From contig NZ_VIKR01000004.1 of the NCBI RefSeq assembly GCF_007004765.1, positions 1-64,000 of the forward strand: a stretch of 64,000 nt of DNA, in the 5' to 3' direction. Positions 11,229-44,586 of this stretch are shown one piece after another (position 1 is the first letter of the stretch; each line of letters opens with the position of its first letter). This DNA is from Aliikangiella marina (GTDB lineage Bacteria; Pseudomonadota; Gammaproteobacteria; Enterobacterales; Kangiellaceae). A program made the position numbers and the translations under genes. Under the pieces are notes generated by a model. It made no database searches. It was not told the DNA's origin and was given only the letters and a program-made list of their open reading frames with translations.

Positions 11229-14200
11229 ATGAAAACTTTTTTTGACAAAACGATTCATCAGTCGGCTTTAATGTCGGCGTTTTTAATTGGTGTATTAGGT
11301 TGTGGTTCCGTCGGCGATAGCGACGTCGGCGAACAAGCGGATCTTCCGCCAATTGCCGTCGGCATTGCCGTTGGTCTTGGTGCTGATAACTCAGCAAGAG
11401 AAGGCACTGAAGTTATTTTAACCGCTAAAGATAGTGATGGTCAGGACACGCCAATTTTCGAATTTAATTGGAGCGCTTCCAGTACTAACCCTAGCGATGT
11501 TCAACTGCGCGAATTGACAGCCAACGCAGTAAGTTTTACCGCGCCCAAAGTCGTAACTGCTACAGATTATCGATTCGATTTGGTTGTCATCGATGCGGAC
11601 GGTGGGCAAGCGACAGATTCGGTCACAATAACCGTTGTACCCGCACGTGATTTGAATCGATTTTTAGCTTTTGATTCGCTATCGACCACTTCGTTAGACA
11701 GTTACCAAATAGCCGCGCTGCCACTAGCAAACCAAACCGTCGATGCGGCAAATGCTGAATTTTCCATCTCGGTTAATGCCGTTGTGCATTACCCCGATCG
11801 CAATGCAATTTGCACCGTTGATGGCTACGATAGTAGTGGCGAAGTGTGTTTGACTTATCTCAATAACAATTCACGTGCCCTAACTCAACTTGACCAACAA
11901 GTTGTTGCTAATTGGCGAACTGATGATGCGGGTAATGCACTTGAGTCTCGGGTAACCCTTGATTTACCTCAATTGATTATCGACCAGTTTAATCAGGATC
12001 TATTAGATGACAATGCTTCTCGAGATGATTTATTAGATTTGTGGAAAGCCGACGATATTGAAATTGAATTGACATTTGATTTAACCACAAGCCTTGTAGC
12101 TGAATTAAGTGTCCTTGGCCCTAATGATGGCTCTCGAGTCAACCTAGGCGACAATAGCGCACCGCCAATCACTTCTGCACTCGCCCCCATAACAGTGACC
12201 GCTGAGGCTATCCGAAATAGCGGACGCGGGAGGGTTGAGTCAAAAGCAACCGCCGAAGCTTATTATGCAGCGATAGATCCCACTAATAGCGCCGATACCC
12301 TCAATAAATGGCTAGTTAGTGCTGGATTTGCAGAAGATAATGGCGACGGCACCATCACCGTACTGAGCAATGCAATAAATGGTGTTGATTCTGAAGAGTC
12401 GGAATTTGCTCATGCGGTTTACACCAACAATTATGATTTAGGTTTTGGTCGCGATATGTACGTGCGAGTCGACGAAGCAGGCAATGTTTATTCCTACGTA
12501 GTCAATTACCCGACGCTTGAAGCCGCCCTAAAAAAACTTAATCCATTAGCAACGGTGGTGATGGAATACAGCCCCCCGGCACAAGGATCAGCGACGGATG
12601 AAAAGTTTGTTAAGTTTTATACTTATATTCCCAATGAAGAAGGCGATCAAGTAAGAGTAACCGACTTCAATTTTGACGGACGTGGTCAGAAGTACATGCC
12701 TGGCGTCTGCGCAGCTTGCCATGGCGGAGAACCAAAAGCGATCGATGTGAATGACCCGGGTTATGTCGGCAACATCAATGCCACTTTTCTACCCTGGGAT
12801 CTCGATTCGTTTCTCTACTCCGACACTGATCCAGCGATTGTAAATCTCGACGAAGTCGAGAACGATACTGCAAACTTAGTTTACAACCGTGCAAGCCAAG
12901 AAGAACAATTTCGCAAGCTCAACCAAGCGGTTTACCACACTTATGTCGACTCTGCGAATCCACGCTTTGATAATGCGATCGACTTAATTGGCGGTAGTGA
13001 CGGAAACCCTGGCTGGTATAGTGATGCGACCTGCAGCGAAGGCAGTAATACAGTCGCTTGCATCAGTGGTGCTTTTAATGGGGATTACGTGCCGACAGCC
13101 TGGGCTGCGCACAGCGACTTGTATTCCAATGTTGTTGCTCAACATTGTCGAATGTGTCATGTGGGTCGAGAAGGTACAGAAGACGATCCGAATTTCTTGC
13201 AAATGGCGACACCGGATGATCTCCTTTCAGCTGAGAATCGTCCAAAGACGATTGATCTTGTATTTAACCGAGGCGTAATGCCGATGGCTCGGTTGACCAT
13301 GGATAGATTTTGGACTGGTACCGACGACAATCCTAATCCGACAGACATATTGTGGACTGACCTAGGGCAGATGAGCGAAACGCCCACTCCTGGCGCACCA
13401 CTTCCCGAGATTACTAGTCAACCAATTGAACTTTACGCGGTTGAGAGAAGCCTCAATGAGCAAAGTTATTTACTCACTAAGCTCGGCAGGCATATTGAAA
13501 TTGATGCCAGTGAATCGTTATTTACTGAGAGCTTTGAGTGGACACTCTTGGACTCAACAACGGTACCAGGATTTGAAAGTTGCTTAAACGATCCACAGGC
13601 GTTAGTCGCTAGCGGCGATCGCGCAGTGCTTACGCCAACTATCGCCAATGCCGACGACCAGTTTTATTGCGTTCAAATGACGGCATCCAATGATTTGGCG
13701 AGTGTCGCATCAAATATTTTGTTTGTTTCCGTTGTCGATAATCGACAACCACAAATATTATTTGCAAGCGATTGTCGAGACCAAGACTTGTGTTTATCAG
13801 TTTCTGAACTAAATGCTGACCCTGCGAGCTCAATTTTATCAATCAGTGCAGTTTCAGATCCGAATACTTTAGACTTTACCGATCCTGATTGCGAGCTAGA
13901 TCCCAATAAAGTATGCGTAAACGTCGACACATTTTTCCAAATTGTTGATCAAGATGTTGCAGATGGTTTAGACCCGCCTTCAATTATCACTTTTGAATTA
14001 AGTTCTCTTTTAACGGCAGGCACCTTAACGCCAAGCAACTTTACTTTACAAGAGCTGTTGCTCGGTAATGTGATCCGCTACCAGGCAACTATCGACGAAG
14101 TTGGTGCCAATGCACTCACTGAGTCGTTAGAGTTTGATGTCTATGATAATGGTGTTTTAGTGAGCGGATTGAGTATTAATTCTGCTGAAATTAATATCAA

Positions 14201-14843
14201 TCCAGTCAGTGATAATAGCCCTGTTTTCGGTGCAGTGGATAATGCGACTGTCAATTTTGGCGCTGTTTTCAACTCAAGTAATTTTGATGTTACTGATGCC
14301 GACGAAGACATTTTAACCCTGACTAACGTACCAACTTCGCTGGGAGATTTAGCCACATCCGAAGTTTCAAGTAATGCCGATGTAACGACCTACAATTACA
14401 CTTTCACCGCTAAAACGGCGGCAGAAGTCGCTGGAGCAGGATCCATTTGTACCAGTGCGGAAGTGTTTAACGGCGGCAACACTGGCAGCTTTCAATTACT
14501 CGCTGACGACGGTAGTGACAGCGTCGATGTACCAGTAACAAGAAACGTGTCAGTAACGCTTACACCATCACTCAGTTATAGCGACGTGGTTGGCCCATTT
14601 GCAAACAAATCAGCGAGTGGTGGTACCTGCTCGAGTTGCCATGTTAGTGGTCCCGGAAGCCCTAATTGGGCAAGCGATATCAACGGTATGCGCCAAGTCA
14701 TCAATCTCGCATCTCCCACCGACAGTACGATTTTCAACAATAGCTCTGTCGGTCACACTGGCGGTACCTATACCATCGACTTTGTAAACAACGCCGCTGA
14801 CAGAAATCTGCTAGAATGGATTTATCAGTGCTCGCCACAATAA
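11229..14843 (+). CDS. Large lipoprotein with Ig/PKD-like domains and three CxxCH haem motifs
   Basis: 1204 residues. A signal peptide leads to a lipobox (GVLGC). Residues about 40-140 look like a PKD/Ig-like domain (DSDGQDTPIFEFNW, DADGGQATDSVTITV). Three c-type haem motifs are visible: CAACH at 494-498, CRMCH at 640-644 and CSSCH at 1134-1138. The region between them holds cadherin-like beta domains. A role in extracytoplasmic electron transfer or haem-dependent chemistry follows from the motifs, but the partner is unknown. GAGG lies six bases before the ATG. It is the last of three co-directional surface genes (81-base gap), and a hairpin follows at 14863. Confidence 0.82.
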   Translation: MKTFFDKTIHQSALMSAFLIGVLGCGSVGDSDVGEQADLPPIAVGIAVGLGADNSAREGTEVILTAKDSDGQDTPIFEFNWSASSTNPSDVQLRELTANAVSFTAPKVVTATDYRFDLVVIDADGGQATDSVTITVVPARDLNRFLAFDSLSTTSLDSYQIAALPLANQTVDAANAEFSISVNAVVHYPDRNAICTVDGYDSSGEVCLTYLNNNSRALTQLDQQVVANWRTDDAGNALESRVTLDLPQLIIDQFNQDLLDDNASRDDLLDLWKADDIEIELTFDLTTSLVAELSVLGPNDGSRVNLGDNSAPPITSALAPITVTAEAIRNSGRGRVESKATAEAYYAAIDPTNSADTLNKWLVSAGFAEDNGDGTITVLSNAINGVDSEESEFAHAVYTNNYDLGFGRDMYVRVDEAGNVYSYVVNYPTLEAALKKLNPLATVVMEYSPPAQGSATDEKFVKFYTYIPNEEGDQVRVTDFNFDGRGQKYMPGVCAACHGGEPKAIDVNDPGYVGNINATFLPWDLDSFLYSDTDPAIVNLDEVENDTANLVYNRASQEEQFRKLNQAVYHTYVDSANPRFDNAIDLIGGSDGNPGWYSDATCSEGSNTVACISGAFNGDYVPTAWAAHSDLYSNVVAQHCRMCHVGREGTEDDPNFLQMATPDDLLSAENRPKTIDLVFNRGVMPMARLTMDRFWTGTDDNPNPTDILWTDLGQMSETPTPGAPLPEITSQPIELYAVERSLNEQSYLLTKLGRHIEIDASESLFTESFEWTLLDSTTVPGFESCLNDPQALVASGDRAVLTPTIANADDQFYCVQMTASNDLASVASNILFVSVVDNRQPQILFASDCRDQDLCLSVSELNADPASSILSISAVSDPNTLDFTDPDCELDPNKVCVNVDTFFQIVDQDVADGLDPPSIITFELSSLLTAGTLTPSNFTLQELLLGNVIRYQATIDEVGANALTESLEFDVYDNGVLVSGLSINSAEININPVSDNSPVFGAVDNATVNFGAVFNSSNFDVTDADEDILTLTNVPTSLGDLATSEVSSNADVTTYNYTFTAKTAAEVAGAGSICTSAEVFNGGNTGSFQLLADDGSDSVDVPVTRNVSVTLTPSLSYSDVVGPFANKSASGGTCSSCHVSGPGSPNWASDINGMRQVINLASPTDSTIFNNSSVGHTGGTYTIDFVNNAADRNLLEWIYQCSPQ

Positions 14844-14862
14844 GCGCATTGGTATTCTGTTT

Positions 14863-14901
14863 GTCAGATCACTCACCCCTTTTTCAGGAGAGTGATCTGA
14901 C
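14863..14901. terminator. Hairpin after the surface-gene set
   Basis: GTCAGATCACTC (14863-14874) pairs perfectly with GAGTGATCTGAC (14890-14901) around a 15-base loop. There is no long T-run after it, so it is terminator-like rather than a textbook intrinsic terminator. It starts 19 bases after the stop codon at 14843. Confidence 0.55.
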
Positions 14902-15112
14902 TAAAACGCAAGCAGTTCCCGCCGCTTAGCTTTTCGTTTCAGCTAATTCGAATCTCCCTTTTACAATATCTCGATTAAGTTCTAGTGATCAACATTCGCT
15001 AGTTGTAGAATGACATTGACGAGATAGACTATTGAAAAGTAACACTATTTTATAATACGAAAAAAAAATTAAAGATTTTTTGCACGTTTTAGGGCGCTGA
15101 TACGCTAATACT

Positions 15113-15610
15113 ATGGATAGAGACAAAAACAGACTAGAGCTAGTCAGGCAGTATTGGGTTGATTGCGAGTCAATATTGTTAAAACGTGCGATCAAAATCA
15201 TGGGTGATGAGCAAGAAGCCAGAGAGCTCTTGCAACAAGCCGCGGTTATCGCTGTTGAGCAATTTGATAGCAATAAAATTAGCAGCTCATCTGAATTTGC
15301 TCGGTGGATGTGGACTCGATGCAAATGGCTCGGCTTGGATAGAATTTCCCAGCTTAAGCGCTGGGTTGACTTGCCAGAGCTGGTTTCAAACGATACACCT
15401 GTTGAGTACTTATCTGGAAAAGAGTTGTGGGCAAAGCTTCTGGACCAGCTCCCAAAGAGTCAGAAGCAAATAGCAATACTCAAGATACAAGGCTTTAGTG
15501 CCACTGAAATAGCTAAAACGCTCGGCAAAAAATCCGCTAGCGTTCGTTCAAACTGGCGGCATGCCAAGGTAACAATGCTCATAGCGTTAGAGGAATATTT
15601 CAATGAATAA
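15113..15610 (+). CDS. ECF-type RNA polymerase sigma factor
   Basis: 165 residues with the two-domain layout of sigma-70 family group 4 factors. Region 2 covers about 5-75 (RAIKIMGDEQEARELLQQA, then FARWMWTRCKWLGLDRI). Region 4 covers about 108-155, with the helix-turn-helix GFSATEIAKTLGKKSASVRSNWRHAK. It would direct polymerase to a small regulon, often including its own promoter. Its end overlaps the next gene by eight bases, implying translational coupling to a membrane protein at the place where an anti-sigma factor would normally sit. No strong ribosome binding site is seen before the ATG. Confidence 0.88.
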   Translation: MDRDKNRLELVRQYWVDCESILLKRAIKIMGDEQEARELLQQAAVIAVEQFDSNKISSSSEFARWMWTRCKWLGLDRISQLKRWVDLPELVSNDTPVEYLSGKELWAKLLDQLPKSQKQIAILKIQGFSATEIAKTLGKKSASVRSNWRHAKVTMLIALEEYFNE

Positions 15611-16232
15611 AACACGATCGATAATTGATGATGCTATCGATAATTATCGAGACAGCGATGAAATCAGAAGTGATTCCAAGCGCAGAGTAGTCGGCATTAT
15701 CGCAGGCTGCATATTATTAGTGGTCGCCAATATCTTGCCGGTCGCAACGAGTAATGATCAGATTGTTATTGGTGCAGTCATCCTTGCAGGATTAATTTTA
15801 ATGATAACGAGTGCTTTATCATTAATAGAAAATCTGCTTGAAGCTTATGCAAAAATTGAAATTGCTAATGAAAGCTATTTAGTTGAGCAAACCCTACCCT
15901 TAAAGGTTTTCTCTCCTGCCAGCGCTATTGTTGACTCAGTTGTTACCCCGGTTCGGCAAAGTCAGTTCAATGAAACTGCGCTTAACGAAGAAGTCCTCGA
16001 TCTCGCTAAAATGGACCAGGAGATTCAAGCGCTACTCACCATTGAGCAAGAAGCCTTGATTAACGACAAGGAAACTCAAAAGCTTGAGCAACTCAGAATC
16101 GAATATGAAGCATTCAATCAAAAAAGAGTGGCGATAAGGCGTCTATATAAGAAAGTCGGAAAGTTAAAGGTCAACAGCGAGATTGACGAAGATGCACCTG
16201 CAGCTAAAAAAGTAAAGCGTGCCGGACTATAA
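15603..16232 (+). CDS. Two-TM membrane protein coupled to the sigma factor, possible anti-sigma-like partner
   Basis: 209 residues. Two adjacent membrane segments lie at about 28-46 and 52-75, separated by a short loop, so both ends probably face the cytoplasm. The C-terminal half is charged and helical (about 130-195, likely coiled coil). I recognise no zinc anti-sigma motif (HxxxCxxC) and no family. The start codon overlaps the sigma-factor stop, and the next gene follows after three bases, so the three form one operon. A role in controlling the sigma factor is inferred from position only. Confidence 0.72.
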   Translation: MNKTRSIIDDAIDNYRDSDEIRSDSKRRVVGIIAGCILLVVANILPVATSNDQIVIGAVILAGLILMITSALSLIENLLEAYAKIEIANESYLVEQTLPLKVFSPASAIVDSVVTPVRQSQFNETALNEEVLDLAKMDQEIQALLTIEQEALINDKETQKLEQLRIEYEAFNQKRVAIRRLYKKVGKLKVNSEIDEDAPAAKKVKRAGL

Positions 16233-35542: not shown

Positions 35543-35944
35543 ATGTTGAAATCAATCATAGCCATTGGCTTGACCTCAGCGCTTTTGGTCCCAGCATCCG
35601 TGATTGCCTCGGAGCCCGCATACGAAGCAAAAATGAAGCTTAACTTTCAAAAAGATCCATCATGTCTCCTCCAAGGGTACAAAGATAAGTCGAAACCAGT
35701 GAAAGGACGTAGCAGTCTAGTCCATGATGAGAACACCATTTCGTGGACCACTAGTTGTCTCATTCAACTGCCGAAGACCGTTAAATATTGCACCTTAACC
35801 AGCCAAATGGTCACCAACCCAGAAGTGCTGGTCTCATGGAACAGCGTCTATCAGAAAGAGGTTTTACAAGCCAAAATTGTCTCTGATGCGGACATCAACC
35901 CGGGTTTTGGTACTTTAACTGTGACCTATGTATGTTTTGAATAG
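35543..35944 (+). CDS. Small secreted Cys-containing protein, first gene of signalling cluster
   Basis: 133 residues with a signal peptide (ALLVPASVIA/SEP, cleavage near 22). The mature part has four Cys (in SCLLQ, SCLIQ, YCTL and VCFE), so two disulfides are possible in the periplasm. The predicted strands suggest a small beta protein. I do not recognise a family. The CheA-like kinase gene begins about 40 bases later in the same direction. A role as periplasmic ligand or partner of that kinase's sensor domain is inferred from position only. A GGAG-like ribosome binding site precedes the ATG. Confidence 0.7.
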   Translation: MLKSIIAIGLTSALLVPASVIASEPAYEAKMKLNFQKDPSCLLQGYKDKSKPVKGRSSLVHDENTISWTTSCLIQLPKTVKYCTLTSQMVTNPEVLVSWNSVYQKEVLQAKIVSDADINPGFGTLTVTYVCFE

Positions 35945-35984
35945 AGCGAGTTTATCGCGTTAAGTCTTTTAATTGAGTCCGATT

Positions 35985-38900
35985 ATGAAGTTTCTACAGC
36001 TTAATTTTTCTCAAAAAATTTGGTTAGGCTTTGGCATTATCGTGTTGCTACTGTCGCTATCAAGCATCCTCTCACTATACAACTTAAGTGATATCAATAA
36101 TTCAACGACTCAAGTCAATGAAAATGCTGTTCCGGTTTTAAAGCAAAGTAACCAAGCGCAAATCAATTTACTCAAACAAGCAAAAATAAGCTCTTCAGGT
36201 TATACCGCCGATACTTTGATCGAAATTGATACTTTCAGCCGAGAATTTGAAGGCGTGGCAGTAGAATTTCAAAAGCAATTCGAGGCGCTAACTGAAACGG
36301 TAAAACTCGATGAGTCGATGAGCGAATACGTAACAGAAGCAGAAAAACATTACAAAACTTATAACGATTCCGTTAAAAGTATGTTTGCGGCAAAGAAGGA
36401 GTTATTACGCGCGAAAGATCTTGCAAACAAAGAGGTTCAAAACGTTAGCAACATGGTCGACGATGCCGGCGCTTTATTGCTCGATGTCGTTTGGACAGAG
36501 TATGGTGAAGACGATGAATCCCGAGAAATTATGGAGGGTATTCAAGGGCGATTAGACGGACTAATTATTGGAGTATACAACCTTGTCGATGAGATCAATC
36601 GCTCACAAGATATCGAATACTTACAAAATTCTAAATCAGCGATTCAAGAAGCATTTAGTGGAATTCAAGTGAGAAATAACCACGCCGAAACCGTTCTGGC
36701 AGATTTGCGCGGTCGCGAAACATGGCAATCCTATTTAACGATGCTGACAGAAGCAAAGGTAAAAACAACCAGTGACAACAGCATTTCCGATATCAAACTT
36801 CGCCAAGTTGAGCAAAGTATTTTAGCTAGAGAATTACTCGCCACGTCTGATGCTGCTATCGCTAAAGTCGTCAGCGAATTTGACCAATTACTGGGCGAAG
36901 CTGACGCATTATTCAACGAGAAACAAAATGGCGTGCTCGAGACCGTTGATTTAGGTAGTAAAAGTGCGATTATTGCTTGGATTATTCTTTTATTGATGGC
37001 CTCGCAAAACTTCAATTCCATGCGTAAATCAATTAAGAAGAAAATGGCCGATTTAGCCAAACTAAATTCAACCGGTGAAGTTTTGGCGTCATTGCTTAAT
37101 AAAGATAAAGCGCTAGAAGAAGTGCTAGCTGCCATGCATGAGCAAACCGGTGTAGCGCGTGGTTCAGTCTATCTAATGAATGAAGAAGAACAACTCGAAG
37201 TTAAAGCCTTCTATCCGCCTAAAGCTGTTAAAGATGACACCAAAGCGGCCCGATTTGCGCTTGGCGAGGGAATCTTGGGTAAAGCCGCGGAGAGTAAAGA
37301 AATTCTTTACGTTCCCAATACCAGTAAAGATAGCAACTTTGTTAGTGATAGCAACATGCCAGCCAAAGCACTTTTATGTGTACCTTTGGTCGATAAAGAC
37401 GTTTTGATCGGCGTGATGAATTTTTCTGGTGATGTTAAAGAAGTTAACTTTGAAGACAGTGACTACGAGTTTGCTTCTTCGATTGCGCGCTTACTCGTTA
37501 CTACGATTAAAAATATCCGAATGCGCGAAACAATCGAAGAACAAAATCGAACGCTTGAAGAAAAAGTAAAAGCTAGAACCGCAGAACTTCATCAGAAAAA
37601 CAAAGATATTGCAGTTATGATGGCTAATTTGCACCAAGGTTTATTTACGATTATTGAAGGCGGCATTGTCCATCCTGAATACTCAAAATACCTTGAAGAA
37701 ATCCTTAGTACTAGTCAGATTGCCAATCGCAATTTCATGGATTTGCTCTTTGCCGATACAAACCTTGGCTCCGATCAGACCAATCAAATTGCCACTGCAG
37801 TTGATTCATTGCTTGGCATGGATGAGATGATGTTCGACTTTAATTCTCATCTTCTCGTTAACGAAGTCGTTATGAATCGAAAGGATGGTAAGCAAGTTAT
37901 TTTAGAAATTGACTGGGTACCTATTGTTAATCAAAACACGGATGAAATTGAGAAGATTCTCGTTACCGTTAGAGACGTTACAGAGCTTAGAGCCCTACAA
38001 TTAGAGGCTGAGGCTCAAAAACGAGAATTAGAAATTATCGGCCAGATCCTCGCCGTTTCGCCTGATAAATTCTCCGACTTCATTTCCAGCTCGCTTAAGT
38101 TCGTTGATGAATGCCGAGAACTCATTAATAAAACAACAACTAAAGATCTCGATGTAGTTGCACTACTTTTCCGCAACATGCACACCGTTAAAGGCAACGC
38201 GAGAACTTACGACTTTAAGTATATCACCGATTCTGTTCATGAAGCCGAACACACCTATGATGAACTAAGAAAAGACGATGATAAAACCTGGGACCAGAGC
38301 GCGTTACTCGAAGAACTTGCTCTCGCTGAATCCGATATTAGAGTATATCAAAAAACCGCAGAAGATAAGCTATCGGGTTTATTCGCTAACGCCTCTGGGA
38401 CCTCTTCATTAGTCGGTGAAAATATTCAGAAATTAATCAATGAAGTGACATCCTTGGATACAAATACACTCAGTCACTCGGTAAAAACATGGATCCAAGA
38501 TGCTTACCAGGTGTTTACAGGATCTCAAGCAGAATCAGTCAAAGATGTCCTTTCGCCAGTCATCGAATCGGTCAATTCTCTTGCCGCAGAACTGGGGAAA
38601 GAGCAGCCCGAGGTTAAAATTAATGACGCTGGCGCATTAATCAAGCGCGATGCTCACAGTCTTCTCAATAATGTTTTTATGCATGTATTTAGAAATGCAA
38701 TGGACCACGGTATTGAAACACCCGAGAGTCGAACTGAAAAAGGCAAGCCGCCACAGGGTTTGATCAACTTTGACACTCACTTAGCTGACGCTCAAATCGT
38801 GTTTGAAATTAAAGATGATGGTAAGGGCTTAGCGCTGGAAAAAATTTATCAAAGTGCAATCGACAAAGGTATTTTTACTGCGGACCAAGCAAGACCTCCA

Positions 38901-39143
38901 GCCCAAGAAATTGCCAACCTGGTATTTCACTCAGGCTTTTCAACAGCTGAAGCGGTGACCGAAATTTCTGGTCGAGGTGTTGGCATGGATGCCGTGAAAA
39001 ACTTTCTTGAGGAGAATCAGGGTAATATCGAGATAATCCTTGGAGAAGGCCAAGAAGATGAAGAATACCGACCTTTTATAACGAGAATCTCGCTGAGCGA
39101 CGATATTATTATTTCGGGTGAACCACTTAAAAACATCGCTTAA
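35985..39143 (+). CDS. Receptor-fused CheA-like histidine kinase (4HB-GAF-PAS-Hpt-HATPase), no CheW domain
   Basis: 1052 residues from the ATG at 35985. A membrane segment at about 12-32 is followed by a periplasmic helical domain like the four-helix-bundle of chemoreceptors (about 35-325) and a second membrane segment (about 328-342). Then come a GAF domain (about 365-510), a coiled coil, a PAS-like domain (about 545-670), an Hpt domain with phospho-acceptor His733 in NMHTVKGNA, and a CheA-type ATPase (about 860-1035) with N-box HVFRNAMDHGIE, DDGKGL and SGRGVGMDAV. The protein ends right after the ATPase, so the CheW-like P5 domain of CheA is missing. It would sense, autophosphorylate the Hpt and pass phosphate to the CheY at 41505. 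Confidence 0.9.
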   Translation: MKFLQLNFSQKIWLGFGIIVLLLSLSSILSLYNLSDINNSTTQVNENAVPVLKQSNQAQINLLKQAKISSSGYTADTLIEIDTFSREFEGVAVEFQKQFEALTETVKLDESMSEYVTEAEKHYKTYNDSVKSMFAAKKELLRAKDLANKEVQNVSNMVDDAGALLLDVVWTEYGEDDESREIMEGIQGRLDGLIIGVYNLVDEINRSQDIEYLQNSKSAIQEAFSGIQVRNNHAETVLADLRGRETWQSYLTMLTEAKVKTTSDNSISDIKLRQVEQSILARELLATSDAAIAKVVSEFDQLLGEADALFNEKQNGVLETVDLGSKSAIIAWIILLLMASQNFNSMRKSIKKKMADLAKLNSTGEVLASLLNKDKALEEVLAAMHEQTGVARGSVYLMNEEEQLEVKAFYPPKAVKDDTKAARFALGEGILGKAAESKEILYVPNTSKDSNFVSDSNMPAKALLCVPLVDKDVLIGVMNFSGDVKEVNFEDSDYEFASSIARLLVTTIKNIRMRETIEEQNRTLEEKVKARTAELHQKNKDIAVMMANLHQGLFTIIEGGIVHPEYSKYLEEILSTSQIANRNFMDLLFADTNLGSDQTNQIATAVDSLLGMDEMMFDFNSHLLVNEVVMNRKDGKQVILEIDWVPIVNQNTDEIEKILVTVRDVTELRALQLEAEAQKRELEIIGQILAVSPDKFSDFISSSLKFVDECRELINKTTTKDLDVVALLFRNMHTVKGNARTYDFKYITDSVHEAEHTYDELRKDDDKTWDQSALLEELALAESDIRVYQKTAEDKLSGLFANASGTSSLVGENIQKLINEVTSLDTNTLSHSVKTWIQDAYQVFTGSQAESVKDVLSPVIESVNSLAAELGKEQPEVKINDAGALIKRDAHSLLNNVFMHVFRNAMDHGIETPESRTEKGKPPQGLINFDTHLADAQIVFEIKDDGKGLALEKIYQSAIDKGIFTADQARPPAQEIANLVFHSGFSTAEAVTEISGRGVGMDAVKNFLEENQGNIEIILGEGQEDEEYRPFITRISLSDDIIISGEPLKNIA

Positions 39144-39172
39144 TCAAATACAATAACTGACTAGCCGGATTT

Positions 39173-39943
39173 ATGGATATTTTTTATTTAATACTAACAT
39201 TTACCATTGGCCTCATCGCTGGTGCTGCAATTTTTCGTGTATTCGCTAACAAAGAAAAATCGCAATTAATTGAACAGCAAACATCTTTGGAGAACTCGCT
39301 AAAAACAAAAGTTGAGCAATCCGAACTGGATAATTTACAAACGAGCTTTGAGCAACAAATCAGTAGCTACGACAATCAAATCAATTCTCTTCAGCAGGAA
39401 CTAGAAAAAGTCCAAGAGGATAAAGAACGAGAAATTGCTCACTTACAAAACGAACTCAACCATCAAATAAATCAACTACAAAACAGTAACAATCAATACA
39501 GTTCCTTATTTCAGTCTGATCTACACTTAATTCAAGAACAGCTTGTTGAGCTCGGAGAAATCATGATGACTTTCGAGCGATGGCATGATTCCCTCACCGA
39601 GTTAATGCAGCATAATCGCGCCATGAGTGATCAAAATGCGCAATTTTCAAACATTGTAAAACAGATAGTAATCCTCGCACTCAATGCTGCAATCGAAGCA
39701 GCCAGAGCAGGTGAGTTTGGCCGAGGATTTGCTGTTGTTGCTGATGAGGTTCGCTCTTTGGCGCTGCGCTCACAAGATTTGAGCTCGAGCTATCAAGACA
39801 ACTTACATAAGAATGATATTTTGACGACTTCTACATTCCAAGATATCCAGGCGAGTGGAAAGATGATTGTAACTGAGCTTTCCACTGCAAAAAGTCAAAT
39901 TGATGGCTGTCTTGCTAAGTTATCAGGGCTGATCAATGAGTAA
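39173..39943 (+). CDS. Mini methyl-accepting-chemotaxis-like protein
   Basis: 256 residues. One membrane segment at about 4-22 has no periplasmic sensor. A long coiled coil runs from about 25 to 115. Residues about 145-210 hold the conserved receptor hairpin tip ([30 protein letters not shown]), which in chemoreceptors contacts CheA and CheW. It lacks a HAMP domain and the long methylation helices, about half the usual length of an MCP. It starts 29 bases after the CheA-like gene and overlaps the next gene by eight bases. It probably docks to the CheA-like kinase directly, since no CheW is encoded here (inference). Confidence 0.85.
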
Positions 39944-40496
39944 TCGTCCGTTACAACAGCTGTTAAAAGAGTTATTCGACAAAAGTTTGCAAACGTCATT
40001 AGCAGAGTACGGGAGTGATGCTAATTGGAGTTACTCAAATATAAACAAGTCTAATATAACCGACAGTGAGCAAGCGGTATTTCTAACGATTTGCAGCCAT
40101 CAGTTTAGGGTATTCATTACCATCCACTTTGTCCTGGAGAAGTGCCGCAGCTTCATTCAACAAGCCCTTAACGATAAAAAAGAAACCATCGATGAAAAGG
40201 CGAGTTATGACTTCCTCTTGGAGCTCAGCAATAGTATTTGCGGCATGCTGAAGCGAGAACTAGGTAATGCAGTGCCTGCACTCGGTATGTCGACTCCCAA
40301 TATTCTCGACGAGGCAAGCTTTCAATTTATCGATATTTTTAAAGCTGAAGATACTTACTTTCAAGAAATTAAACTCGATGGTAACCATATTTTTTATGCG
40401 GGTTTTTACTACTGTCCGAACGTAGAAAACGAAATCGAGGTGACAGTAATAGAACCCGAAGTTGAAGTCGACAGCGGTGAACTTGAATTATTTTAG
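39936..40496 (+). CDS. CheC/CheX-type protein with SGELELF tail
   Basis: 186 residues, cytoplasmic. DFLLELSN fits the [D/S]-x3-E-x2-N signature of CheC/CheX/FliY phosphatases, with a Pro about 21 residues later (GMSTP), as expected. In that family the Glu and Asn place water for hydrolysis of phospho-CheY. The last nine residues, VDSGELELF, are identical to the end of the next protein, which is otherwise different. The gene overlaps the mini-MCP gene by eight bases and is followed after eight bases by the next. A phosphatase role toward the CheY at 41505 is inferred. The family call rests on the motif, not overall similarity. Confidence 0.68.
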
Positions 40497-40504
40497 GTGA
40501 TTTT

Positions 40505-41479
40505 ATGACCGATTCTCACGATATCAAGACCAAAGCCCTTATTTTTGAACATGATGGCGAAGCCGATAACATACTCAAAGAACTTTGCCAATCACACTCG
40601 ATTACGGGACTGAAGGCCTCCAATCCAAGTACGTTCGACTTGTTAAATAGTAATACCGATTTAGGGGCGGTTTTTGTTTCAGACAAATTTATAGTAGAAG
40701 ACCAGCACGGCGAATCATTAGTGAAAACAATCCATAAACTTAGACCTGAGTTACCCATCTTCTACCGAGTAGAGGACACTAGTTCTGTTAAAGCGCTCAC
40801 GCCGGGACAAAACGTCTCGTGTGTTTATCAATTAGATAAGTTTGATTGTATCGAACAAACTATTAGCAAGCATATTTTTAGTACTCATTATCCCACCCCA
40901 TTAGTACAGGGAATGAAAGAGATTTCGTTGGATGCAATTCAGTCAAATATCAGAAACTGTGTCATTGAAATTGACTCACCTTATCTCGTTAAGGACCAAA
41001 TTATCTATGGCGAGTTGATGAGCCTAATCCCGATCGAAAGTAGTTGGTACCGGGGTTATATGATGTTGCAAACTACGGAAGCTGAAGTTATCAGTATGAT
41101 TGAAAATGGTATGACGCCACTCAATCCCAAAGACACCGATTTTCGGTTTGTAAATTCGCTTTTAAATGAAATTGCCAATATGATTTGGGGAGGTATCAAG
41201 CGTAAGTTTGCAGACAAAGATAACATGCAGGCGGATGATTCCAGTTTAAGAACGCAAGTTCCGATTTCTGTTAATCATTTTCATAAGTATATTTCTTTCG
41301 GTACCACCGAGCCGCAACTCTGCTTTCACTATCGGATAAAAAATGAGTTCGATGAAACTCAGTGTGTCGAACTTTATCAGAAATTTGTATTCAACCTAGC
41401 CTGGCTTCCGGAAAACTTCCAAGAAACAAACGACACCGTCGAAGAAATGGTTGATTCCGGCGAACTTGAATTATTTTAG
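40505..41479 (+). CDS. Degenerate receiver-like domain fused to CheX-type domain, SGELELF tail
   Basis: 324 residues. Residues about 8-125 have the alternating strand/helix pattern of a receiver domain (KALIFEHDGEADNILKEL), but the expected phospho-acceptor Asp region reads AVFVSDKFIVED and the acidic pair is altered (EHD), so it may not be phosphorylated. Residues about 145-305 resemble CheX: SLLNEIANMIWGG matches [D/S]-x3-E-x2-N. The C-terminus repeats VDSGELELF of the previous protein. AGGTGA lies about seven bases before the ATG, overlapping the end of the previous gene. A CheY-phosphatase or a titrating partner is plausible; function is inferred. Confidence 0.65.
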   Translation: MTDSHDIKTKALIFEHDGEADNILKELCQSHSITGLKASNPSTFDLLNSNTDLGAVFVSDKFIVEDQHGESLVKTIHKLRPELPIFYRVEDTSSVKALTPGQNVSCVYQLDKFDCIEQTISKHIFSTHYPTPLVQGMKEISLDAIQSNIRNCVIEIDSPYLVKDQIIYGELMSLIPIESSWYRGYMMLQTTEAEVISMIENGMTPLNPKDTDFRFVNSLLNEIANMIWGGIKRKFADKDNMQADDSSLRTQVPISVNHFHKYISFGTTEPQLCFHYRIKNEFDETQCVELYQKFVFNLAWLPENFQETNDTVEEMVDSGELELF

Positions 41480-41504
41480 AACTGATTAATCAACGGAGAT
41501 TATA

Positions 41505-41870
41505 ATGGCACAAGTTTTAGTAGTCGATGACTCTGCAACGGTACGCAACGAAGTATCGACATTCTTAAAAAACAATGGTTTCGCAGTCGAAACTGCCGAT
41601 GATGGAAAACAAGGGCTTGATAAGTTACGCAGTGACTCAGCGATTAAACTCGTCATTTCTGATGTCAATATGCCCAATATGGATGGCTTGACCATGGCTG
41701 AAAAAATACGCTCAGAACTAGGTAACCAAACAGTCAATATCATTATGCTGACAACGGAGAGCGATCCTCGAATGAAAGAAAGAGGCAAAGCCGCCGGTGT
41801 GAAAGGCTGGATTGTAAAACCATTCAAGGGCGACGCGATTGTTGGTGCGGTTCGTAAGCTCGTCAGTTAG
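41505..41870 (+). CDS. CheY-like single-domain response regulator
   Basis: 121 residues, one receiver domain. The acidic pair is D8-D9, phospho-acceptor D53 (VISDVNMPNMDG), conserved T83 (MLTTES) and K105 (IVKPFK). Trp102 stands at the place of the switch Tyr of E. coli CheY (Tyr106). There is no output domain, so it acts by protein contact. GGAGA lies seven bases before the ATG, and the gene is the last of the CheA-like operon, 25 bases after the CheX-type gene. It is the obvious phosphate acceptor from the Hpt of the kinase; its target could be the cyclase or the HD-GYP protein downstream (inference). Confidence 0.93.
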   Translation: MAQVLVVDDSATVRNEVSTFLKNNGFAVETADDGKQGLDKLRSDSAIKLVISDVNMPNMDGLTMAEKIRSELGNQTVNIIMLTTESDPRMKERGKAAGVKGWIVKPFKGDAIVGAVRKLVS

Positions 41871-41943
41871 CCGCGTGTAAAAAGCGCTAATCAATCGCAA
41901 GCGAGTATGACGTGTAAAATGTCAGTTAATATTTGTCTGCCGA

Positions 41944-41983
<40 letters not shown>

Positions 41984-42092
41984 ATTAGGGTTAAGACTAA
42001 TCCAATTCAACCGAGGTACATTCGGCATTTCAGCGGGCGATTTTCGACTGGCTTATTAATAATGTGAAACGTGTTACTTAACTGATAATTTG

Positions 42093-43007
42093 ATGAACTC
42101 AGAGGACCTAAAAAATACCCTTTTAAACTTCGTAAGCAATAGCCAGGATGGTTATGGAATTTACGATGAGAATGACATTCTTATCTATAGTAACGAAAAA
42201 TTTGCTTCCGTTATGTGCGTCCCAAGAGACAAAATAGTGGGGATGACATTTGAAGATCTCATGCGACATATTTTCACTGTCGGCCAAGGTATCAATATTG
42301 AAGCAGACAATATTGAAAGTTGGCTCGAGTATGTAAGAGGTGTTCGACGCTCTCGCAAGTTCCGTTTATTTGAAGTGGATTTTACAGATGGTCGATGGTT
42401 TTTATTCTCCGAACAAATCGATGATAAAGGCCAGATGTTAGTCCAACTAAAGGATATGACTAAACAAAAGTTACTTGAGAAAGGTCTAGAGTCTTCAGTA
42501 GAAAACCTCAAAGAGATTGCACTTACCGATGAGCTGACGCGAGTGGCGAACCGAAGAAGTTTTGTCACCTCAGTCAATACAGAATTAAGTCGATGTCGGC
42601 GAACGGGAGCCAGTATGTCGTTTCTTATATTTGATTTAGATTATTTTAAAAATATTAACGATACTTATGGCCATCCGATAGGTGACAAAGTTCTCATTCA
42701 CATTACCCAGCTAATCAGCAAATCACTTAGAGCATACGATATTTTAGGTCGTATCGGCGGCGAGGAGTTTGGTGTGTTTCTAAGCAATACGCCGACAGAC
42801 GAGGCTTATGAGATCGCTGAAAGAATACGTCAAACTATCGCTGAAAGTCCGCTCTTTTACGAAGCGACAATGATATCCCTATCGACTTCTATTGGTTTAA
42901 CGACCAAAGGTTGTAATGCGCGTTTTGAGGAACTGTATCAAGAAGCCGACCAGGCGCTTTACTCGGCCAAAGAGGGTGGCCGAAACCAAGTTGTTGTTTA
43001 CCGATAG
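42093..43007 (+). CDS. PAS-GGDEF diguanylate cyclase
   Basis: 304 residues from the ATG at 42093 (an adjacent TTG at 42090 is possible). Residues about 10-130 form a PAS domain (DGYGIYDENDILIYSNEKFASVM). The GGDEF domain covers about 140-303, with DELTRVANRRSF at its start, the substrate-binding DLDYFKNINDTYGH and the active-site GGEEF. RAYD lies five residues before GGEEF, matching the RxxD inhibitory site, so product feedback is expected. It makes c-di-GMP and is cytoplasmic. It follows the CheA-like operon in the same direction after a 220-base gap with a tandem repeat. Confidence 0.94.
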   Translation: MNSEDLKNTLLNFVSNSQDGYGIYDENDILIYSNEKFASVMCVPRDKIVGMTFEDLMRHIFTVGQGINIEADNIESWLEYVRGVRRSRKFRLFEVDFTDGRWFLFSEQIDDKGQMLVQLKDMTKQKLLEKGLESSVENLKEIALTDELTRVANRRSFVTSVNTELSRCRRTGASMSFLIFDLDYFKNINDTYGHPIGDKVLIHITQLISKSLRAYDILGRIGGEEFGVFLSNTPTDEAYEIAERIRQTIAESPLFYEATMISLSTSIGLTTKGCNARFEELYQEADQALYSAKEGGRNQVVVYR

Positions 43008-43314
43008 CGCCGAAATAGGCTACTGTCTTTGCTCTGCCCTTCTCTATGTGAGCACAATCGTATTTGAGTCAGCACAATAGCGTTTAGAAACCACGATGGC
43101 GCAGATAATGGTTAAATAGATACCCTTTACCGATAAGCCATGCGTAAGCCATCAATAAGCCCCATTCGCGCCCTAAAAGCGAACCAAAAGTCATTCAATT
43201 TCAATTAGTAATACTCGCTAGGTAGTCTAAACTTAGATAATTACCGCGATTTGTTGCTATTTTTCGGCATTTTCGCGTATATCACTCTAAATACCCTATC
43301 AGAGCACTAATTGA
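43008..43314. other. Intergenic region between cyclase and HD-GYP genes
   Basis: About 300 bases without a gene. AGCACAAT occurs twice (about 43050 and 43072). The promoter of the HD-GYP-like gene is expected here. No terminator is clear. Confidence 0.4.
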
Positions 43315-44586
43315 ATGAGTAAAAGCGTCCCGTTAGATCAGTTAGAAGCAGTACCGGAATCGTTATTGGAAGTGGGTAAATCCTTACCCTATGATCTGTA
43401 TAACGCCCGCGGAAATTTCCTTTCAGCGCAAAACTATATCTTTAGAAATGAGATGGAAGTCGCAATGGTGCTTAATGCCAAACCAATGCGTCTGAAGCTC
43501 GACGAACCAACTATAAAAACTCAGAATTCAGAAGAACTGTTCGATGACACAGTCGGTGGGGAAAAAACCGACTCGGATGATAACTTTGACGCTTTTGATG
43601 ACAGTCTAGCAGGTACCGGTTCAGTCGAGCTAGCATTCGATGACTCGAGTCAGCCTGAAGCCAAAAAGTTGAAGTTTGATTATACCGTGATTGAAGGCAC
43701 ACAAGAACTCATCAACTTATTTCCTAAGTTGTTTAGAGCGATTCACGATGACAAGGAACTCGCGATTAAACTGCTGAAAAAAATGGAAGACATACTCTTT
43801 CATGTCATCGCTATCGACTATGATGCTGCAATTGGCGTCGTTCATATGACGGAGATTAAGACTCAAGCTGAACATTGTGTTTTCGCTGCGATATTAGCAG
43901 CGATTTATTCAAGGACAATTGGCTATCCCGATCGATTCGTCAGATTGGTTGCAAACTCAGCGATTTGTATGAATATGGGAGCGATCAAATTACACCATCA
44001 ATTGAATTCGGAAGATTCGGAACTTAGTGAAGATATGTTGTCTGAAATTCGTCGCCATTCTGAAGAAACCGTGAACTTAATTGCGGAAGTTGGAATCCGG
44101 CATCCCACTATCAAGAATGCAATTTTACATCATCACGAAAGACCAGATGGTTCTGGCTATCCACTCGGATTACACAGTGTTGAAATACCGGATGAAGCCT
44201 TGATCATTGGCATTGTCGATACTTACCTCGCGATGATTGGACCAAGGGCTTATCGCAAGAAAATACAACCCAAAGAAGCGCTCAAGGCAGTACTTTTCGA
44301 AGGTCACAAATACGATAGTGATTTTTATACTTCATTTATAAAAGCCATTGGGGTTTTTCCTGCAGGAACTTTCCATGAATTAACGAATGGTGATATTGTT
44401 GTGATCGCGCGGCGCGATCCCGAGCATTCGACAAAACCAGTCGTTTGCCGATTAAAATCGGCCGAAGGTTACATCGAAAACACATTAAAATTCAGAAAAC
44501 TTGCGGCAACAAAACAAACAGTTAAGGCGCCTTTTGCTAATGGTATGTCACTCGGTATTCGGCCTACCGATCTTTGGAAGAGCTGA
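43315..44586 (+). CDS. HD-GYP-like protein lacking the HD pair, probable c-di-GMP receptor or regulator
   Basis: 423 residues. The N-terminus (GKSLPYDLYNARGNFL) is a segment typical of HD-GYP proteins. An acidic linker covers about 65-110. The HD-GYP domain spans about 185-350: AEHC, RRHSEE, HHHERPDGSGYP and IVDTYLAM are kept, but the HD dyad position reads Met219-Asn220 (CMNMGA instead of LHDIGK). Loss of the two metal ligands should abolish or strongly reduce hydrolysis, so it may bind c-di-GMP or a partner protein. It follows the CheA-like/CheY cluster and the cyclase and could be their output (inference). A hairpin follows the gene. Confidence 0.88.
   Translation: MSKSVPLDQLEAVPESLLEVGKSLPYDLYNARGNFLSAQNYIFRNEMEVAMVLNAKPMRLKLDEPTIKTQNSEELFDDTVGGEKTDSDDNFDAFDDSLAGTGSVELAFDDSSQPEAKKLKFDYTVIEGTQELINLFPKLFRAIHDDKELAIKLLKKMEDILFHVIAIDYDAAIGVVHMTEIKTQAEHCVFAAILAAIYSRTIGYPDRFVRLVANSAICMNMGAIKLHHQLNSEDSELSEDMLSEIRRHSEETVNLIAEVGIRHPTIKNAILHHHERPDGSGYPLGLHSVEIPDEALIIGIVDTYLAMIGPRAYRKKIQPKEALKAVLFEGHKYDSDFYTSFIKAIGVFPAGTFHELTNGDIVVIARRDPEHSTKPVVCRLKSAEGYIENTLKFRKLAATKQTVKAPFANGMSLGIRPTDLWKS

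Follow-up and report, generated by a model that had tools for sequence, protein, structure and literature searches.

A five-gene chemosensory variant built on a CheA-type kinase core without P5

In chemosensory signalling, what links receptor to kinase at a locus that has parts of both but no coupling protein CheW? This question is raised by a gene cluster of Aliikangiella marina (assembly GCF_007004765.1, contig NZ_VIKR01000004.1; genome size 5.3 Mb), which we analysed within a window comprising positions 1 to 64,000 of that contig. Five genes on the plus strand, at 35973-41870, encode in order a sensor kinase, a short relative of methyl-accepting chemotaxis proteins (mini-MCP), two CheX-type proteins (CheX-1 and CheX-2) and CheY. 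An earlier description made from the DNA letters (the original prediction) had seen here a self-contained CheA-like cluster without CheW, CheR or CheB, whose genes lie within 30 bases of one another, and had proposed a phosphorelay distinct from classical chemotaxis that perhaps controls cyclic di-GMP (c-di-GMP). Window open reading frames and Pfam bore out the gene positions and order across 35973-44586, the five genes are separated by 29, -8, 8 and 25 bases, and no CheW, CheR or CheB is found among the proteins of the window cluster. What the cluster may do is another matter, and on this point the relatives of these genes led us to a different reading.

The kinase and its five-gene module

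Pfam recognized 4HB, GAF, Hpt and HATPase domains and a sub-threshold PAS domain in the kinase, which also has two hydrophobic segments, around residues 15 and 325; Response_reg was matched in CheY, and GGDEF and HD_5 in the two genes further downstream. A profile of 35 kinase relatives aligned with E. coli CheA over P1 and over the greater part of both P3 and P4. The AlphaFold model of the window kinase (mean predicted local distance difference test score 88.6, lower in the P3 region) contains an Hpt domain, a short two-helix hairpin and an ATPase, and its best fold matches were CheA proteins, with 28-36% identity in structural alignments. The P3 and P4 part of this alignment spans residues 281-496 of E. 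coli CheA; in place of P3 the model has its hairpin, partly at low confidence, and Pfam H-kinase_dim was not matched. We did not find a P5 domain in the window kinase by Pfam, by alignment to solved CheA or in the AlphaFold model, nor in eight relatives by Pfam. A median of 11 and a maximum of 45 residues follow the kinase core (n = 71), a remainder too short for P5. The originally described 4HB-GAF-PAS-Hpt-ATPase kinase is borne out by Pfam (PAS below threshold), and its lack of a P5/CheW domain by Pfam, the CheA alignment and the model. The Hpt histidine, given earlier as His733, has that number if the ATG is taken as the start; the TTG start lies four codons before this ATG and makes it residue 737. 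The acceptor position of CheY is Asp53 (D53), as had been claimed.

The sensor part of the kinase varies, from 4HB-GAF-PAS in the window to 4HB-HAMP, PAS or propeller domains in relatives, with none recognized in one of eight. The receptor is therefore joined to the kinase, one sensor or another being fused to a CheA-type core that has Hpt, a short P3-like hairpin and P4 but no P5. With CheA kinases of the F, Tfp and ACF classes it shares the Hpt domain, the P4 ATPase and, apparently, the P3-like hairpin, whereas the missing P5/CheW domain, its own sensor domains and the short P3 helices of the model set it apart. A survey of CheA detects a CheW (P5) domain in 100% of the CheA sequences surveyed and counts CheW as one of four core proteins that all chemosensory systems have (PMC10542144). 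By this criterion the kinase would not qualify as a CheA, though it is made of CheA parts. At one related locus, two large kinases of the family adjoin each other beside a single module (L091:11742-20225, minus strand; related loci are numbered with the prefix L), the first of them (11742-15902) with Reg_prop and Y_Y_Y domains.

To follow the module through bacteria, we scanned a CheX-2 alignment against one genome per species (84,980 species), obtained 248 relatives and fetched the best 80 loci. Mostly Gamma- and Betaproteobacteria, judged by record title, host these loci; several from Herbaspirillum and Aquabacterium are close kin, and L058, L059, L060 and L075 apparently come from the same genomes as L014, L015, L016 and L050 and are not independent. 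One locus (L067) bears the title Akkermansia muciniphila on a metagenome-assembled genome (MAG), unlike the other hosts, and is perhaps a misbinned or mislabelled contig. All five families occur together in 68 of the 80 loci. The remainder comprise six without the kinase only, one without a full CheY only, one with CheX-1, CheX-2 and CheY, and four with CheX-2 alone; some of them end at contig ends. A search for the gene order in other genomes, which the original prediction had suggested as a check, found it, so that the refuting case named there, an order shared with no other genome, does not apply: kinase-MCP-X1-X2-Y occurs in 42 loci, among nine arrangements that include kinase-X2-Y-MCP-X1 (nine loci), the kinase last (six) and an inverted or doubled kinase. 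The order is that of the window in L014-L016, whose CheY proteins are 83-88% identical to the window CheY; L017 has four genes with a partial CheX-2, cut by the contig end, and L050 and L051, from 'same class' genomes, have all five. The recurrence of the same five families in 68 of 80 loci is not chance, and content that is kept while order is shuffled argues for a joint function.

The module is uncommon. CheX-2 was found in five of 295 genomes of an order sample and four of 369 of a class sample, and in the latter exactly the four CheX-2 genomes had strong kinase matches (E < 1e-70; the next best genome reached 8e-37), with ordinary CheA proteins giving weaker matches to the kinase profile in many genomes. 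In a plasmid collection, six records matched CheX-2 (four Burkholderia, two Caballeronia), and the one of each that we checked has all five genes. We then considered 50 CheX-2 genomes picked by us from the 80 loci, 47 of which have five genes at the locus, two four (L079, L096) and one CheX-2 only (L101). The kinase family was present in all 51 genomes when the window's own is added, including those in which it lies apart from CheX-2 (L096, L101); 14 of the 51 have two to five kinase matches, of which a few are partial, and some of these genomes have two or more CheX-2 genes. Pairwise distances over 45 loci gave values of 0.47-0.56 for the kinase, represented by core fragments, against the other four proteins, and of 0.68-0.83 among those four. 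The kinase alignment set leaves out 22 of 71 kinase genes with split or short profile matches. Because kinase distances track the other four less well, MCP-X1-X2-Y seems to be a stable core that is fed by kinases. Neighbours at the 80 loci yielded no sixth conserved partner gene: the commonest clusters, with GGDEF and receiver-bearing proteins from broad families, reach 10/80 and 9/80 and lie on varying sides.

The CheX proteins, the mini-MCP and a shared tail

CheX-2 matched Pfam CheX with 35.0 bits (cut-off 27) and CheX-1 with 22.1, below the cut-off. The catalytic Glu and Asn of the E-x2-N motif are invariant in 57 CheX-1 and 52 CheX-2 rows, as are E222, N225 and P253 of CheX-2 in its 52 rows, and a fold comparison made for CheX-2 returned the CheC-like structure 3h2d among its matches. 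These proteins resemble CheX/CheC phosphatases in profile, E-x2-N...P residues and, for CheX-2, fold, and differ from them in that each module has two paralogues, one fused to a receiver-fold domain and both with a GELE[LFM]F tail. In a profile comparison (weak, probability 44%), residue 60 of CheX-2 fell beside D53 of CheY. This position is Glu in 41 of 52 rows and Asp in eight, is Asp in the window, and has no conserved lysine after it, and for the majority of the family the domain is probably a pseudo-receiver. We dropped the idea that it is without any acceptor residue, given the Asp in the window and in 8/52, which might be phosphorylated. A second, divergent CheX-2 relative (L078:11521-12573, minus strand), 28% identical to the window CheX-2, lies between CheY and the kinase of one locus.

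The mini-MCP shares a signalling tip and a coiled-coil hairpin with methyl-accepting chemotaxis proteins, and the Pfam MCPsignal match in the window protein covers only this tip. The tip signature G..G[RK]GF lies within the conserved tip of all 75 mini-MCPs (that of L061 is divergent), and an N-terminal hydrophobic stretch was present in 63 of 74. Beyond the tip the likeness fades: 69-100 residues follow the tip glycine (median 74, n = 75; 76 in the window) against 135-145 in the four full-length MCPs encoded at these loci, a hairpin of about half the length; the QTN ahead of LALNA is replaced; and a strict methylation motif was found in three of 75 and a loose one in 34, compared with a strict motif in three of the four full-length MCPs. 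Pfam recognized neither a ligand domain nor HAMP in the window mini-MCP. CheR and CheB, absent from the window cluster, were not searched for in related loci. Two nearly invariant bands peculiar to the family, TFERWH before the tip and TFQDIQA after it, each lie about 45 residues from it and would roughly face each other in the hairpin. We considered a CheZ-like active site at FQD and dropped it, as no Gln stands four residues further along.

The two CheX proteins share a six-residue C terminus, G-E-L-E-[LFM]-F. A loose form of this pattern ends 72 of 74 CheX-1 and all 80 CheX-2, and the strict form 66 and 77, respectively; in CheX-1 the tail follows a variable stretch with 31% Asp/Glu (14% in the whole protein). 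The strict tail closes 148 of the 5,496 open frames of at least 70 amino acids in the 80 loci, and all but two of those 148 (146) are CheX genes. The remaining two adjoin a module as well. One (L078:7709-8194, minus strand) is a CheW that neighbours the mini-MCP, is read from the other strand and ends in EEDSGDLEFF; it is identified by Pfam (E = 9e-10), since the CheW profile used on the loci includes this sequence and matches it by construction. The second (L061:11029-12174, plus strand) is a 381-aa protein with no significant Pfam match, from a MAG labelled SAR324, that ends in AGELELF. The CheW has little but the tail in common with CheX-1, and so has the 381-aa protein with CheX-2. In the window genome the tail ends the two CheX genes only, a third DNA-pattern match having no stop codon; a control with the pattern reversed had three matches too, so the pattern alone is not rare. 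A mini-MCP that ends in DVDFELDF (L075:8555-9370, the same as L050) bears a faint likeness to the CheX tail.

Considering that unrelated proteins beside the same module carry this short conserved terminus, preceded by variable, acidic residues, we read the tail as a portable docking tag. Two candidate partners stand out. The C-terminal tail of CheZ binds CheY, and CheY is a candidate because the CheX-2 tail resembles it: the window CheZ ends in EVDDLLSSLGF, and CheX-2 likewise has an acidic-hydrophobic run and a final Phe. This likeness was spotted by eye, and the pattern was written after the tails had been seen; the CheX proteins are not CheZ homologues, and CheX-1 shares the last six residues only. 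The mini-MCP is the other candidate, because its two conserved bands are otherwise without a role and a CheW would not be expected to bind CheY. The residue two before the end tends to agree between CheX-1 and CheX-2 (F with F in 8/14 versus 7/59, p = 0.0008), which may reflect common descent.

The output of the module and its alternatives

We propose, with a probability of roughly 0.55, that the module is a side branch of flagellar control whose phosphatases are held at their site, rather than a c-di-GMP relay. A membrane kinase carrying its own receptor part on the Hpt-P3-P4 core would have no need of the P5/CheW link. Judging from the families involved, it would autophosphorylate on Hpt His737 and pass the phosphate to D53 of CheY, and the intact E-x2-N motifs suggest that CheX-1 and CheX-2 dephosphorylate CheY. 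The shared tail could dock both CheX proteins to one partner, which may be the membrane-anchored mini-MCP, serving as a scaffold, or else CheY, in the manner of the CheZ tail. Phosphorylated CheY would then most likely act on the flagellar switch.

Flagella are favoured here because FliM co-occurs with the module in the host genomes. Against a background of 185 genomes from the class sample, FliM was found in 48 of the 50 CheX-2 genomes versus 92/185 (p = 1e-10) and, among CheW-positive background genomes, versus 87/133 (p = 8e-6); CheW lies elsewhere in the genome in 50/50 versus 133/185 (p = 1e-6), all of these p-values being a guide only, as the genomes are related, so that independence is overstated, and the 50 were chosen by us. 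Within the window's family, 17 genomes without a FliM match are also without a CheX-2 match. Besides the relatedness of the genomes, several observations weigh against our proposal. Two hosts, both MAGs (L074, L107), gave no FliM match, and three FliM-bearing genomes of the window's family gave none for CheX-2; a pure scaffold role leaves the retained MCP tip unexplained; two CheX-1 proteins end in GELQML instead of the tail; and a search for partner columns that co-vary with the tail gave no clear signal, the highest scores falling on kinase columns, which had fewer rows and from which descent was not removed.

In one alternative, the module serves the ordinary chemotaxis array as an accessory: the tip of the mini-MCP would bind the CheW of the host and the P5 of its CheA, and the kinase, CheX proteins and CheY, placed in or beside the array, would trim a common pool of phosphorylated CheY. 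The invariant tip signature, the CheW in all 50 genomes and the one CheW that bears the module's tail all fit this account, which we nevertheless consider rather unlikely in view of the shortened hairpin, the replaced QTN, the scarcity of methylation motifs and a neighbourhood in which 79 of 80 loci have no CheW adjoining the module (a CheW fragment lies at the edge of L106, and contig ends cut some loci). A host free of CheW would have been proof of independence, and none was among the 50; with CheW in every one, independence from it cannot be deduced from the gene cluster alone. The cluster is in this respect less self-contained than originally described: CheW, CheR and CheB are missing from it in the window, whereas CheW is present elsewhere in 50/50 genomes and FliM in 48/50. 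A routine CheW in homologues, which the original prediction had named as evidence against itself, is not seen at the locus and is seen in the genomes; the distinction from classical chemotaxis is weakened by this, by FliM, by the tip and by the tail-bearing CheW at 1/80 loci.

Other targets of CheY also deserve a hearing. It might drive type IV pili, adhesion or something else, with genome size and phylogeny producing the association with FliM, and the fact that no neighbour family exceeds 10/80 loci, so that nothing flagellar is consistently linked, speaks for this, as do the two of 50 genomes without FliM and the 46 of 133 CheW-bearing background genomes that do without it. We regard such an output as unlikely, since the enrichment of FliM persists among CheW-positive genomes and fits the pattern within the window's family. 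Very improbable, in our view, is an insulated relay in which the adjacent cyclase and the HD-GYP-like protein bring c-di-GMP under its control. The two genes do follow CheY directly on the same strand in the window, but at gaps of 219 and 307 bases, and at a distance of up to about 6 kb from the module, a relative of the GGDEF gene is present in 10/80 loci and one of the HD gene in 1/80; neither directly follows CheY in L014-L016. We rejected a c-di-GMP output for want of this linkage, and flagellar output is more likely. Beyond the choice of output, it is a tentative idea that the module represents a separate class of chemosensory machine, in which receptor and kinase are fused, the MCP hairpin serves as a small membrane scaffold, a single portable C-terminal tag recruits clients from unrelated families (two CheX types, CheW, the 381-aa protein), and one or several kinases feed a single MCP-CheX-CheX-CheY hub.

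Surrounding genes and significance

The cluster had been delimited as 35543-44586. Its conserved part is 35973-41870, and the 133-aa open reading frame, the GGDEF gene and the HD gene at its ends are not conserved neighbours (Table 1). The 133-aa frame (35543-35944), directly 5' of the kinase, has a 51% identical relative at L057:4860-5267 only, among the neighbours examined at the 80 loci. The label 'degenerate HD-GYP' is a fair one: the HD protein has NMGAI at the position of HDIGK, the motif expected there, and keeps HHERPDGSGYP.

Table 1 Coordinates of the module, its motifs and its downstream neighbours in the window
Feature	Position	Strand	Remarks
Sensor kinase K, 1056 aa	35973..39143	+	TTG start, ATG 4 codons on; 4HB, GAF, weak PAS, Hpt, P3-like hairpin, P4; no P5
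Hpt domain	38076..38312	+	Putative phospho-acceptor His codon 38181-38183 in FRNMHTVKGNAR
CheA-type P4 ATPase	38676..39047	+	Pfam HATPase_c match; protein end ~30 aa further
Mini-MCP, 256 aa	39173..39943	+	N-terminal hydrophobic stretch, coiled coil, MCP hairpin tip
TFERWH motif	39569..39586	+	Family-specific, 5' side of mini-MCP tip
Retained MCP signalling tip	39635..39787	+	
TFQDIQA motif	39833..39853	+	Family-specific, past mini-MCP tip
CheX-1, 186 aa	39936..40496	+	D92-x3-E96-x2-N99-x21-P121; below Pfam cut-off
CheX-1 C-terminal tail	40476..40496	+	GELELF-stop
CheX-2, 324 aa	40505..41479	+	Receiver-fold domain fused to CheX domain (E222, N225, P253)
CheX-2 C-terminal tail	41459..41479	+	GELELF-stop
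CheY, 121 aa	41505..41870	+	D53 acceptor position
PAS-GGDEF diguanylate cyclase	42090..43007	+	RIGGEEF; local neighbour outside conserved module
Degenerate HD-GYP-like protein	43315..44586	+	Local neighbour outside conserved module

We recognized no description of the five-gene set in the open-licence literature, a coverage outside which most subscription papers fall, and regard the set, taken together, as a novel chemosensory variant. In Laribacter, a sensor kinase, a chemotaxis transducer and cheY2 are reported to lie side by side near cheA2 (PMC3180692). The module keeps the predicted chemistry of CheA together with an MCP tip and without the P5/CheW link at its locus, and the role of an MCP tip in such a setting thereby becomes a question that can be asked. 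The tail offers a short and easily tested handle on it: because it is common to two predicted phosphatases and, in one case, to a CheW, whatever binds the tail would be the centre of the system.

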